Positions 29,200-35,703 of a stretch of 35,703 nt of DNA are shown here, piece by piece; position 1 is the first letter of the stretch, and each line of letters begins with the position of its first letter. The notes beneath the pieces were generated by a model, which made no database searches, was not told the origin of the DNA, and was given only the letters and a program-made list of their open reading frames with translations. Source of the stretch: Actinomycetales bacterium (GTDB lineage: Bacteria > Actinomycetota > Actinomycetes > Actinomycetales > Quadrisphaeraceae); contig JAKONK010000089.1 of NCBI GenBank assembly GCA_022701985.1, positions 1-35,703 of the forward strand, written 5' to 3'. The position numbers and the translations under genes are program-made.

Positions 29200-29522
29200 C
29201 CGCTGCTCGCCTCCGCTGGACGCCTCGAGGCTGGTGCTCGGGCGACGACGCGCCCACGGTCGGACAGCGTGCTGCCGAGCACGGCTGCCCGGGCGGTCCA
29301 GAGGCACCGCGCCCCTCCTGACGGGGTCGTCACGAGGCCCGCGCGGCGCCTGCGGCCCGACGCGCGAGCGTCACGGGGTCGCGGAGCGTGCGGTCGATGT
29401 CGACGTCACACCGCAGGCTCGACGGACCCTCTGCCCGAGGCGCCTCCGTCCGTCGCGGACGGGACCGCTCGTCGGACGCGGCGCACCTGGCACGAGCCGA
29501 GTCGCGACCGGTCCGCCCCGCC

Positions 29523-31477: not shown

Positions 31478-31502
31478 CCGCTGCGTCGACCGTCTCGTTG
31501 AT

Positions 31503-31588
31503 GGACCGCTGACCGCCCGCCTCGGAGGAGGTTGCGGCGCGCTGGCGCTTGGGGCCGCGGTCCGTCGCAGTTGAGACCCTCATCCGGT
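31503..31588. repeat. Intergenic element copy A
   Basis: GGACCGCTGACCGCCCGCCTCGG...GGGGCCGCGGTCCGTCGCAGTTG...CATCCGG; gap-free alignment of 31504-31570 with copy B, 52 of 67 identical by hand. Confidence 0.8.
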
Positions 31589-31654
31589 CGGCGGGGTGCT
31601 GACGATCCGCCTACGGCGACCGGTGACTGAGCTTTGCAGACCGGGCAGCAAACC

Positions 31655-32500
31655 TCACTGAGTGCTGTCGAGGATCAGTCGGGTTGCCTCCTGCGGTGCG
31701 TCCCACTGTGGAAAATGGCCGCACCGCTCGAACCAGTGCAGCTCCGCGTCGGGGAAGAGCTCCACAGCACGTGCGGCCTGTTTCGGCACGGTCACCAAGT
31801 CGCGACGCCCCCAACCGATCGTGACCCGGCCGGGGGCGGTGCCAGCAGGCGCACCCTGTTGCCTGGGCCCGTGGATCAGGGCGTCCAGGGCCGCGCCAGT
31901 CGCCGGGGAGTCGGCCAGCCCACGCACGTCCGGCAGCACGGTCTCGCGCGAGAGCGTCCAGGGCCGCGCTGACAACTGCGCCAGCAGCAGCGTCCTGCCC
32001 ACCGAGCTGCCGAGCAGTGCTGGCAACAGGGGCCGTAGTGCTCGCACCAGCTTGATCGAGGGTCGCAGCGTGGCGCCGAAGACGAAGACCTCGCGGTCGT
32101 TCCAGAAGCCGCCCGGGTCCAAGGCCACGGTGTCGCCGCCGAGTCCCCGCCGCGCGAGCTCGAGCACCATCCGGCCGCCCATCGACTGGCCGACGGTCGA
32201 GACCCCGTCCAGCCCCTGTTCGCGGATGAAGTCCGCGACGGAGTCAGTCAAGGTGGCGATCGAGACCTCGCCGGTCAAGGGCGGTGTCTCACCGAACCCT
32301 GGTAGATCGACGGCGATGACCTCACGGTGCTCGGCCAGTTCGTCGAGGATCGGAGACCAAGATCGCCATCCTGCACCCAGACCGTGGACGAGTAGCAGCG
32401 GGTGGCCGCTCCCTCGTCTTACGTGATTCAACGCCACACCTGAGAACGCTAACTCACCTCGAGAAACTCGCCCATTAAGAAAAGCGCGTAACGCTGGCAC
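31655..32500 (-). CDS. Alpha/beta hydrolase
   Basis: HPLLLVHGLGAGWRSWSPILDELAEHREVIAVDLPGFGETP; GQSMGG nucleophile elbow; WFERCGHFPQWDAPQEATRLI. Exact start uncertain. Confidence 0.87.
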   Translation of the reverse strand: MPALRAFLNGRVSRGELAFSGVALNHVRRGSGHPLLLVHGLGAGWRSWSPILDELAEHREVIAVDLPGFGETPPLTGEVSIATLTDSVADFIREQGLDGVSTVGQSMGGRMVLELARRGLGGDTVALDPGGFWNDREVFVFGATLRPSIKLVRALRPLLPALLGSSVGRTLLLAQLSARPWTLSRETVLPDVRGLADSPATGAALDALIHGPRQQGAPAGTAPGRVTIGWGRRDLVTVPKQAARAVELFPDAELHWFERCGHFPQWDAPQEATRLILDSTQ

Positions 32501-32683
32501 TTCCTGACGGCCGCGTGTGAATCAGCGGCGTGTCCCGACAGTCGAACGACGACCGCAACACCCGTCCCGTGCTGTTCGACCCACCCAAGATCTCTCCGGC
32601 CGGGCAGGTCAGTGAGCTCTTCTCCGAAGATCGACCGTGAGAAGGGATCGGTGTCCGGCGAGCACCTACGAGGCAGTGCCGCT

Positions 32684-32772
32684 GGACGACCGCTGGCCGC
32701 ACGCCTCGGTGGGCGTCGCGGCCACTTGCCGCTCGGGGCCGTCGTTCGTCGCAGTAGGGATGGTCAACCGGC
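32684..32772. repeat. Intergenic element copy B
   Basis: GGACGACCGCTGGCCGCACGCCTCGGTGGG...GGGGCCGTCGTTCGTCGCAGTAGGG...GTCAACCGG. Confidence 0.8.
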
Positions 32773-32801
32773 ACAGCGACCAGGTCGCTAACGTCGTAGC
32801 G

Positions 32802-33671
32802 ATGCTGCCGGCCGATGGTCACGTCCACAGCCAGTTCTCCTGGGACGCCCCCCACGGTGACATGCATGCCACCTGCGCCCGCGCGATGGCCCTCGGACTG
32901 CCCGCCCTGGCCTTCACCGAGCACCTGGACCTGACCCCCTGGACCCTGCGGGCACATCCGGTCCCGCCCGGCTGCCGCGGCCGCGCCGATGCCCGCGGTC
33001 GCTACCTGGGCGAGGCACTTGACGTGGCCGCCCACCTCGAGCGGTTGCTGCGGTGTCAGCAAGCCTTCCCCGGGCTGGTCATCTGGTCGGGGCTGGAGAT
33101 CAGCGAGCCGCACTGGCACCCGCGCGAGGTCGCCGAGGTGGTGGCCGCTGTGAGCCCGCAACGGGTGATTGCCTCGGTGCACGCCTTGGCCGACGTGCAT
33201 CTCGGCGCAGCGGACGGTGGCTACGTGGAGGTCGGTGACGGCTTTGACCAGCGTCCTGCGGTCGAGGTGGTGCGTGCCTACCTGGCTGAGGTGACCGCCA
33301 TGTGCACCAGCCGAGCGCCCTTCGACGTCCTGGGGCACATCGACTACCCGCTGCGCTACTGGCCGAAAGGCGCAGGACCGGTGCCGTGGGAGGAGCTGGC
33401 CGATGACTTCCGTGCGGCCCTGGAGGCTGCGGCCGCCGCTGAGCGGGTGCTGGAGGTCAACACCCGGGTGCCGCTGCCGCCGCGGGTGCTGAGCTGGTGG
33501 CACCAGGCCGGTGGGCAGGCGGTGGTCTTCGGCAGTGACGCTCACCGTCCCCTAGAGCTGGGGCGCGGTCTGGTCGAGGCGGCGGCGATGGTGAGCGCTC
33601 ACGGCTTCGTCCCCGGCCAGAGGCCCTTCGAGCCCTGGCGCCGGGGCCCGGGTCGGGGCGGTGCGCGGTGA
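32802..33671 (+). CDS. PHP domain-containing phosphoesterase (histidinol-phosphatase-like)
   Basis: MLPADGHVHSQFSWDAPHGDMHATCARAMALGLPALAFTEHLD; DVLGHIDYPLRYW; VFGSDAHRPLELGRGL metal-binding motifs. Confidence 0.88.
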   Translation: MLPADGHVHSQFSWDAPHGDMHATCARAMALGLPALAFTEHLDLTPWTLRAHPVPPGCRGRADARGRYLGEALDVAAHLERLLRCQQAFPGLVIWSGLEISEPHWHPREVAEVVAAVSPQRVIASVHALADVHLGAADGGYVEVGDGFDQRPAVEVVRAYLAEVTAMCTSRAPFDVLGHIDYPLRYWPKGAGPVPWEELADDFRAALEAAAAAERVLEVNTRVPLPPRVLSWWHQAGGQAVVFGSDAHRPLELGRGLVEAAAMVSAHGFVPGQRPFEPWRRGPGRGGAR

Positions 33672-33723
33672 TCGCTTAAGTCGTTGAAGGCTTCTCCGCA
33701 AGGACCCAGTGCTGTGTCGAAGA

Positions 33724-33809
33724 GGACCGCTGCCCGCCCGCTCCGACGGGGTCAGCGACGGATCGCGGCAGGTGCCGCTGTCCGTCGCAGTTGGGGTCGG
33801 CAACCGAAC
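33724..33809. repeat. Intergenic element copy C
   Basis: GGACCGCTGCCCGCCCGC...GTGCCGCTGTCCGTCGCAGTTGGG...CAACCG. CCGCnGTCCGTCGCAGTTGnG matches copy A at 19 of 21. Confidence 0.75.
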
Positions 33810-33907
33810 GGCGCGGTGCTCATCGCGCCCGTCGGGGAGCTTCGCCAGCCCTTCTCGGATGACTCGGCGTTGGCGAGCCAGGTCCTGGCTGAGGTTCTCG
33901 TGACGGT

Positions 33908-34270
33908 TCAGCCCAGAGCCTGCGCGGTGAGCAGCTGCGACGGCAGGTTGTCACCGCTTGCCTCATCCAGTCGCTGGAAGCCCGCTCCCAGTACATCGGC
34001 CAGGTCCGCGGTGTAGATGCCGGCGGTGCCGACGACGACGAGGTCGCTGCTGTCGGCGAGCTCAGCGACCGAGGAAAAGATCTCCGCACGTGAGCCCGAT
34101 CCAGCGCTGTCCGACGTCAGCGTCGTCTTCGTCGCACTGGCCGTCGTGGCGTCAGGGGAAGGGGCGCTGTTGCTGCATGCCGAGAGGGCCAGGACAGCAG
34201 CAGCCACCAGTCCCACAAGCCTTGCGCCGGCGCAGGCCTGCATAGGGCAGCAGGGTGGCAGCTGGCTCAC
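33908..34270 (-). CDS. Small putative lipoprotein of unknown function
   Basis: ARLVGLVAAAVLALSACSNS lipobox signal; RAEIFSSVAELADSSDLVVVGTAGIYTADLADVLGAGFQRL. Confidence 0.6.
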   Translation of the reverse strand: MSQLPPCCPMQACAGARLVGLVAAAVLALSACSNSAPSPDATTASATKTTLTSDSAGSGSRAEIFSSVAELADSSDLVVVGTAGIYTADLADVLGAGFQRLDEASGDNLPSQLLTAQALG

Positions 34271-34401
34271 TGATCATGGGTGTCTCCTCCATGGCGGGCC
34301 CGTGCGGCTGGCGATGTAGGGCAGCGTCGTCCCCGTCAGAGATGACGTGTTGGCGACGCGCCGTGTTGCAGCCCACGGGACGGCCATTCCAGTCATCCCG
34401 G

Positions 34402-34482
34402 TGGACGACCGCTGGCCGGACGTCGTGCGCCCCCCAAGCCACGTAGGCGATCGACAAGGCTGGTCGTTGCAGTGGCAACGGT
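34402..34482. repeat. Intergenic element copy D (more diverged)
   Basis: TGGACGACCGCTGGCCG (34402-34418) identical to copy B over 17 nt; GCAGTGGCAACGGTCATCC matches the copy B tail at nearly the same spacing (1-nt offset). Confidence 0.6.
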
Positions 34483-34601
34483 CATCCCACGAACTGCGAC
34501 GCACCTCTCCAAGAAACCGAGTGACGGATGGAAGCGGTCGCTGGCCCCAACCACTAGGTACGGCGGCGACGGCTCACCGCGGCCCGGGAATCCGTACAGG
34601 C

Positions 34602-35324
34602 TCAAGGACATAGACGCGGCAGATCCTCGGAGGCGACCCGCTGGAAGACCTCTTGGTGACCCGCATCGTCCTCGAAGGTGAGCATGTCGCCCTCGATCGC
34701 GGCCCAACCTCGCTGGACCGGGACGTTCCACCCAAGCGGAGGACCGCCGGCGCCGTCGTCCAGGGCGCCTCCAACGCGCGCATAGCTGCTGTAGCCGTCG
34801 GAGATGGTGCACACCCCACGGTCAGTGAAGATGACCAACGAGATGCGTCCCTGGGAGTCCGTCGCCGGCCCACCCAGAGGCAGCGCCACGAGCTGTCCAT
34901 CTGAGGTGGCTTGGACGTCGACCCGATAGTTCTCCCCGTCGCACTGAGCCCCGTTGGGCTGGAACAGATACGGCTCAAGGACACCGCTGGCTTGGTAGGC
35001 CCGGTCCCCACGCTCGGTGACGACCTCAACCTCCACGGCGACCGGCTCACCGGTCAGGTCAGCCTCGACCGCGGTCGACAGTCCGTATTCGTCGTTGCCG
35101 GCAAAGCCGTACGTCCCTTTCTTTTACAGGTCGGGCAGTCTGACGGTGGCGTAATAGTCACCACCTTCGAAGGGCAGCACGGTGGTCAGGTCGACGCTGA
35201 CCCCTTCAGGTGCGCCGACATCGCTACAGCCGGTGACCTCGATGGGTGAGGAGTTGAGGCCGAGACAACCGGTAGTCATGAGCACGGGGGTGAGCGCCAA
35301 AGCTGCGTGGTGGGTGCGTCGCAT
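34602..35324 (-). pseudogene. Putative secreted lipoprotein gene split by an in-frame TAA at 35124-35126
   Basis: Same frame on both sides: MRRTHHAALALTPVLMTTGCLGLN...GGDYYATVRLPDL[TAA]KKGTYGFAGNDEYGLSTAVEADLTGEPVAVEVEVVTERGDRAYQ...FQRVASEDLPRLCP. Confidence 0.75.
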
Positions 35325-35703
35325 AGTCAGTCTCTTCCCTCGGTGCCGCGTCGTTGCTTTGACCGGGAGCTCTAGTGGAAGTGTGTGACGTGGCTCGGCT
35401 CAGCTGCATCGAGGAGAGGCGACGGTCTCGTATCGATCGGCGAACCGGCCTGTGCCTAGACGCTTGGCCCTGCTCCGTGAAGACCTGACGCGTCGTCGAG
35501 GGCCGCCAGGGCCCTCCTCACCGTCAGCGTCTCGTTGACGACCGTCGAGTGAACGACTCACGGCCCTCCAGGCGCTCGTCGTCGCGCTCGGTGCGCGAGT
35601 CTCGTTCGACCTGTCCGGTGGTCCGTCTCACCCGAGGGGCGGTCTGCGGAGATCAGCACCGCTGGCGCGAAGACAGCTCTGCGGAGGTCCCGGGCGGGGA
35701 CGC

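Follow-up and report, generated by a model that had tools for sequence, protein, structure and literature searches.

Integron-like gene-cassette arrays in Quadrisphaera, likely run by a small serine recombinase

Background

The attC sites of integrons vary in sequence while their structure is conserved (PMC9024848), and among Actinobacteria IntegronFinder 2.0 lists no complete integron (PMC9024848). Other systems also mobilise genes at short sites: in the pdif (XerCD-dif) modules of Acinetobacter-type plasmids, genes are framed by short sites and exchanged between replicons, and in SCC elements a serine recombinase (CcrAB or CcrC) places DNA, at times in tandem, into a single chromosomal site. 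No small serine recombinase is known to build arrays of unrelated gene cassettes, and neither a serine-recombinase integron nor any description of the system presented here was found in the open-licence literature searched, which is only weak evidence of novelty.

The arrays described here, from the actinobacterial genus Quadrisphaera, are likely to represent an integron-like system of gene capture that is driven by a small serine recombinase (SR), a reading to which a probability of roughly 0.65 is given, catalysis by SR being inferred from association and from the logic of the junctions.

Results and discussion

The array in the window

The window, meaning the whole stretch of DNA that was analysed, is an entire contig of a draft genome (G000:C67, 35,703 bp), and the array within it runs into the assembly break. 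The repeated element of a preliminary description of this contig, copies A to D, is here named T1; each copy is scored below with R3, a refined model built from 54 copies. Both ends of T1 are copies of a short site, S, and the array is followed by a further element, T3. The features are as follows.

29453-29478, + strand: candidate single site S (GTCGCGGACGGG-AC-CGCTCGTCGGAC, centre 29464-29465), above the cut-off; weak match to the T1 model (E 0.01)
31487-31591, + strand: T1 copy A (R3 E 8.5e-22); 5' site AC at 31505-31506, 3' site AC at 31576-31577
31578-32688, - strand: cassette with an alpha/beta hydrolase gene (ORF 31655-32500, minus)
32672-32771, + strand: T1 copy B (R3 E 3.2e-20); 5' site AC at 32689-32690, 3' site AT at 32760-32761
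32762-33725, + strand: cassette with a PHP-domain phosphatase-like gene (PF02811; ORF to 33671, plus)
33711-33811, + strand: T1 copy C (R3 E 1.4e-14); 5' site AC at 33726-33727, 3' site a degenerate GT at 33796-33797
33798-34407, - strand: cassette with a small putative lipoprotein gene (ORF 33908-34270, minus); no Pfam match
34392-34476, + strand: degenerate T1 copy D (R3 E 5.1e-4); 5' site AC at 34408-34409 kept
34410-35540, - strand: last cassette, with a broken lipoprotein-like gene (ORFs 34602-35036 and 35124-35324, minus)
35529-35648, + strand: T3, an attI-like array-end element (R2 E 3.9e-18); 5' S GTCTCGTTGACG-AC-CGTCGAGTGAAC, AC at 35541-35542

The order A, B, C, D and then T3, which lies 55 bp from the contig end, fits the rule for arrays given below, and the GC content falls from 75.6% before copy A to 68.2% within the array. 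Scanning both strands of the whole window for S gave eight positions above the cut-off, all on the + strand, of which seven fall in copies A to D or T3 and the eighth is that at 29464. This last site is a potential left edge of the array, and the block of SnoaL-like, SDR and TetR genes before copy A may be one more cassette; its composition is native-like despite the site. Synteny of the left flank was uninformative, the SDR/TetR pair not being conserved in congeners, and a plasmid search returned gene-level homologues only (e.g., of the hydrolase, 80%, in a Streptomyces plasmid). The lipoprotein-like gene at 34602-35324 is split near 35036-35124 and is apparently a decaying cassette gene.

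Element T1 and its distribution

The preliminary description, made from sequence alone, had reported a four-copy repeat, and this is real, with A, B and C as clear copies and D as a degenerate one (E 5.1e-4 with the genus-wide model, 0.6 with a model of A-C alone). Its statements that all four copies lie on the same strand (+) between genes of mixed orientation, and that A and B are alike, also held, the similarity of A and B measured here being 75% over 84 columns. It had named the lack of further copies in the genome as grounds for refutation; more copies, clustered in one orientation, occur in the source genome and in every congener.

The model built from A-C gave matches in all five congeners, many of them clustered; in 93 genomes from other genera no match rose above noise. 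R3 recognises ~85 T1 copies at E<1e-4 in the six Quadrisphaera genomes and none outside Quadrisphaera at that threshold, the best outside match being 2e-3. A T1-specific DNA pattern, with which 85,462 species genomes were scanned, was matched by Quadrisphaera granulorum DSM 44889, 'Streptomyces sp. NP160' and one stray, an exact match in Streptomyces bambusae that sits in ordinary coding sequence and was set aside as chance. 'Streptomyces sp. NP160' (NZ_VDMJ01000018.1 and related contigs) looks like a misnamed Quadrisphaera. A compact pattern for S occurs in six of 396 genomes of the order, all within Quadrisphaera and its sister genus. The system is confined to one actinobacterial family.

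T1 and T3 measure ~110-125 bp. T1 is intergenic (45 of 46 centres lie outside called genes) and is adjoined by palindromes such as GTCAGCGTCTCGCTGAC; many copies are only about 75% alike. The possibility that T1 is a piece of a coding gene was rejected: its consensus is readable in one frame, but its conservation lacks a three-base period and its centres avoid called genes as stated. An RNA or attC-like structure was likewise rejected, for there were no Rfam matches in the window, no covariation or conserved fold among T1 copies, and a predicted fold of copies A and B no more stable than that of shuffled sequences (z -0.4 to -0.8). Nor is T1 a tRNA or a tRNA att site, as ARAGORN finds only a distant tRNA-Ser.

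Site S and its central dinucleotide

The two ends of T1 (5' GTCTCG....GAGGACCGCTGACCG and 3' GTCGCAGATGGGATCGCT.ACCGG) are shown to be copies of one ~26-bp site consisting of 12 nt, AC or AT, and 12 nt, with their centres about 70 bp apart within T1. Among 81 T1 copies the 5' site has AC in 71 of 74 cases and the 3' site has AT in 71 of 80. Junctions map strand exchange to the central A-Y of S. The centres are alike in 31 of 37 breakpoint pairs that are non-redundant and not fully independent (19 AC, 12 AT), and unlike in the other six; this agreement is partly expected if the dinucleotide descends together with its flank, yet it holds for left-shared and right-shared pairs.

Inverted joins, in which a left half is joined to a left half or a right half to a right half, occur in five places, all with AT and none with AC:

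Inverted joins: G005:C4:490934; G005:C22:11445; G000:C126:15010; G002:C127:50805; G003:C19 near 21390

Such a restriction of inversion to AT, which is self-complementary (palindromic) as AC is not, is predicted by the 2-bp overlap rule of serine recombinases. By inspection of the consensus, the halves of S form no clean inverted repeat, and the strongest motif, CGCTGAC, recurs in direct orientation around the centre, in contrast to the resolvase sites of textbooks. At G006:C2:164302-164501, a bare S unit (CGCTGGCCGGTCAGCGTCCCGCTGAC plus 3 nt) is present in seven tandem 29-bp copies.

Arrays, array ends and cargo

The orientation rule is shown: neighbouring T1 copies less than 10 kb apart lie on the same strand in 50 of 53 pairs (p 5.5e-12). 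T3, about 125 bp with one S at its 5' end, is located 3' of T1 arrays, the nearest T1 being 5' of T3 on the strand of T3 for 21 T3s and the opposite for one; for ten T3s there is no T1 closer than 20 kb. Two T3-ended arrays were examined in detail, and in both the genes immediately beyond T3 look native. The array genes look foreign (coding score 0.34 vs 0.51, p 1e-10; GC 70.6 vs 74.7%) and are of mixed orientation, 36 with T1 and 48 against it. For most of the 30 array proteins scanned, the match is to a widespread accessory family: GNAT acetyltransferase, glyoxalase, short-chain dehydrogenase, alpha/beta and epoxide hydrolases, RibD_C, fatty acid desaturase, antibiotic-biosynthesis monooxygenase, FAD monooxygenase, LysE exporter, TetR, carbon-nitrogen hydrolase, an extra Trp/Tyr-tRNA synthetase, and DUFs. 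With acetyltransferases, a glyoxalase, oxidoreductases and hydrolases among their cargo, the arrays constitute a pool of exchangeable accessory genes. A short-period tandem repeat at L098:15911-16312 (G003:C19) is unrelated to the arrays.

Evidence for mobility

Breakpoints at S, sharing of blocks between species, and one gain or loss of 16 kb within the S of a T3 are all shown by comparison of genomes. At array loci, 50 of the 135 ends of blastn matches between species fall inside elements, against 5.1 +/- 3.1 (at most 16) in 1,000 control shifts of the element positions; these loci had been selected because they carry T1, and the permutation corrects for this in position alone. The hydrolase block of the window runs between the 3' site of A and the 5' site of B; it is 94.5% identical to G002:C90:11902-13024 with both ends at S, and a 1,859-bp unit of T1 plus genes with S at both ends is 99.6% identical between G002 and G005. 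Between G001:C14 and G002:C123, identity on the two sides of S in T3 is 99.6% across 14.3 kb and 99.96% across 5.3 kb, and G001:C14 alone has an extra 16,275 bp placed exactly in this S and S-bounded on both sides. In the same pair of genomes, one T1 position with near-identical flanks (L064:10397-10504 vs L069:9870-9977) differs in its interior at about 20 positions, as if the T1 spacer itself had been swapped, which is possible.

Because arrays are same-strand, breaks fall at S, a block is shared from S to S, and 16,275 bp are inserted in the S of T3, the arrays are considered mobile and integron-like, with the elements as their joints, although excision and integration have not been seen in living cells. 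The evidence is limited to one draft genome per species, and contigs often end within arrays.

The preliminary description had guessed at a gene-cassette or recombination-site array other than attC, and had proposed a search for further copies and a check for gain or loss of exactly one element plus one gene. The guess is supported on these tests: homologous blocks begin and end at the element, and the hydrolase block has moved between species with element-bounded ends. For gain or loss, two near-identical loci differ by a single insertion, of 16,275 bp, located exactly in the site. That description could not show T1 to comprise two sites of recombination, nor T3 to close the array, nor a recombinase to be linked with the system in relatives; the T3 at 35529-35648, the single S at 29464-29465 and the reach of the array to the assembly break had gone unseen.

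The associated serine recombinase

Small serine recombinases are present in G001, G003, G004 and G005, in the last at G005:C4:490152-490802, but none was found in the source genome (G000, 94.8% complete) or in G002, though both have arrays. Four of the five group-A SR genes of Quadrisphaera are themselves framed by S as cassettes in which S is directed towards the 3' end of the gene, and no SR occurs within 3 kb of the Quadrisphaera T3s examined. An association of T3 with SR is shown in the sister genus (g2): at each of the five T3 loci a PF00239 gene, convergent with T3, lies 0.4-0.9 kb past it. Four of these loci came out of an unbiased scan of genomes (chance about 6e-14), and the fifth was a local find. 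Sites or arrays of S lie upstream of these T3s in the orientation of T3, in one place as seven tandem 29-bp units. SR resembles the Gin invertase (PDB 4m6f, 9.8e-33) and gamma-delta resolvase (1.2e-24), and the SR of G005 combines the resolvase catalytic domain PF00239 (2.8e-39) with a C-terminal helix-turn-helix, PF02796. SR is favoured over tyrosine recombinases because the T3-SR association in the sister genus is the deciding comparison and SR is of the Gin/gamma-delta type. Catalysis by SR at S is inferred.

Proposed mechanism

S would be the crossover site, and T1 a conserved spacer between two S with different centres (AC 5', AT 3'). AC and AT would mostly not recombine together, so that T1 would not be lost; for this reason T1 would be retained, and the mobile unit would be T1 plus one gene block, from AC to AC or from AT to AT. 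T3, with one S of the AC kind, would close the array on its 3' side, and cassettes could enter or leave there, the role of T3 as the preferred entry point being inferred. SR would be encoded beyond T3 and pointing back, [cassette + S/T1]n -> T3 <- SR, and would serve several arrays of a genome in trans.

Alternative explanations

The same array might instead be served by a tyrosine recombinase downstream of T3 (YR378, a 378-aa protein, and relatives), with T3 as its attI, making the system a remote functional counterpart of integrons, one with double-stranded sites; this remains possible. In its favour, five of 33 T3s have a PF00589 gene on their own strand no more than 3 kb downstream (about 0.11 expected, P 1.4e-7), and YR378 is at least 95% identical in G000, G001, G002 and G004; in the source genome it lies 290 bp from a contig start. 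On the other hand, YR378 is broken by an insertion (IS) in G003 and absent from G005, the genome with most T1, the tyrosine recombinases adjoining T3 are from divergent families, and the recombinase beside the five sister-genus T3 loci is SR. Tyrosine recombinases have an overlap of 6-8 bp, and inverted joins at a 2-bp AT do not fit them. Each Quadrisphaera genome carries many phage-type tyrosine recombinases; their association with T3 is real, and T3 may also be an entry point for phage-like islands. The contig with the YR378 gene (L128, G000:C40:1-4632) starts 290 bp upstream of it and could follow the end of the window; joining the two contigs was considered and cannot be shown.

It is also conceivable that the arrays are relics, built by a recombinase now lost and immobile in most species, which is compatible with the serine-recombinase reading and differs from it only in present activity. 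The lack of SR in G000 and G002 speaks for a relic, as does the degeneracy in the window of copy D and of the 3' sites of A and C. Against it, the difference between G001 and G002 is recent, given flanks 99.6-99.96% identical, and S-bounded blocks are 99.6% identical between species; present-day activity of the system is nevertheless inferred only.

A dispersed intergenic repeat of the REP/REPIN or MITE type, merely marking spots of homologous recombination or rearrangement, is very improbable. T1 is indeed short, intergenic and beside palindromes, but no Y1/RAYT transposase (PF01797) was found in the six genomes, the arrays are strictly same-strand with T3 termini, a likeness of ~75% is too low for efficient homologous exchange over 85 bp, breakpoints fall within 1-2 bp of S and the 16-kb difference is exact, and neither S-less empty sites nor target-site duplications around single T1 copies were seen. 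A true but hard-to-recognise integron (IntI and attC) in an actinobacterium, for which the array architecture, the single end site and the small cargo genes of mixed orientation would argue, is as good as ruled out: no protein in any of the six genomes exceeds the curated TIGR02249 cut-off for IntI, RYYYAAC (R'') plus GTTRRRY (R') is absent from all 81 T1 copies on either strand, and T1, showing no covariation or conserved fold, is conserved in sequence, unlike attC.

Comparison with known systems

The serine-recombinase reading can be set beside the systems named at the outset. The sites of pdif modules alternate in orientation and use XerCD, whereas here there is one orientation, with AC/AT centres and an end element; SCC elements have large serine recombinases, a single att in rlmH and no repeated site after each gene. 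The Gin/Hin invertases and Tn3/gamma-delta resolvases (gix/hix/res) share PF00239 plus PF02796, a 12+2+12 layout, inversion at a palindromic centre and, in res, a site of the size of T1 and T3, but the known members act by inverting or resolving one segment or a few, and S, on inspection, appears to lack their usual symmetric half-sites.

In common with integrons (including superintegrons and CALINs), sites in one orientation lie between small unrelated cargo genes of either orientation, each array has one special end site, a recombinase gene adjoins some loci while many arrays have none nearby, and gain or loss occurs exactly at sites (16,275 bp in the S of T3, G001 vs G002). It differs in that there is no IntI, the sites are sequence-conserved, of ~26 bp and with a 2-bp centre, in place of a folding attC, the chemistry is probably that of serine recombinases, and T1 holds two sites with different centres. 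The system works like an integron but is not a member of the class: tests for an integrase, for the attC motif and for a folded site all came out negative. A bolder reading, held with a confidence only a little better than even, is that this is a second kind of integron, independent of IntI and attC, in which SR assembles foreign cassettes and the incompatibility of AC with AT both defines and protects the mobile unit. If SR does the work, gene-cassette capture has arisen on at least two occasions with distinct chemistries, and the rule of AC and AT offers a natural two-site tool for ordered DNA assembly. Each Quadrisphaera genome examined has cassette arrays that share the functional design of integrons and are made of unrelated parts.
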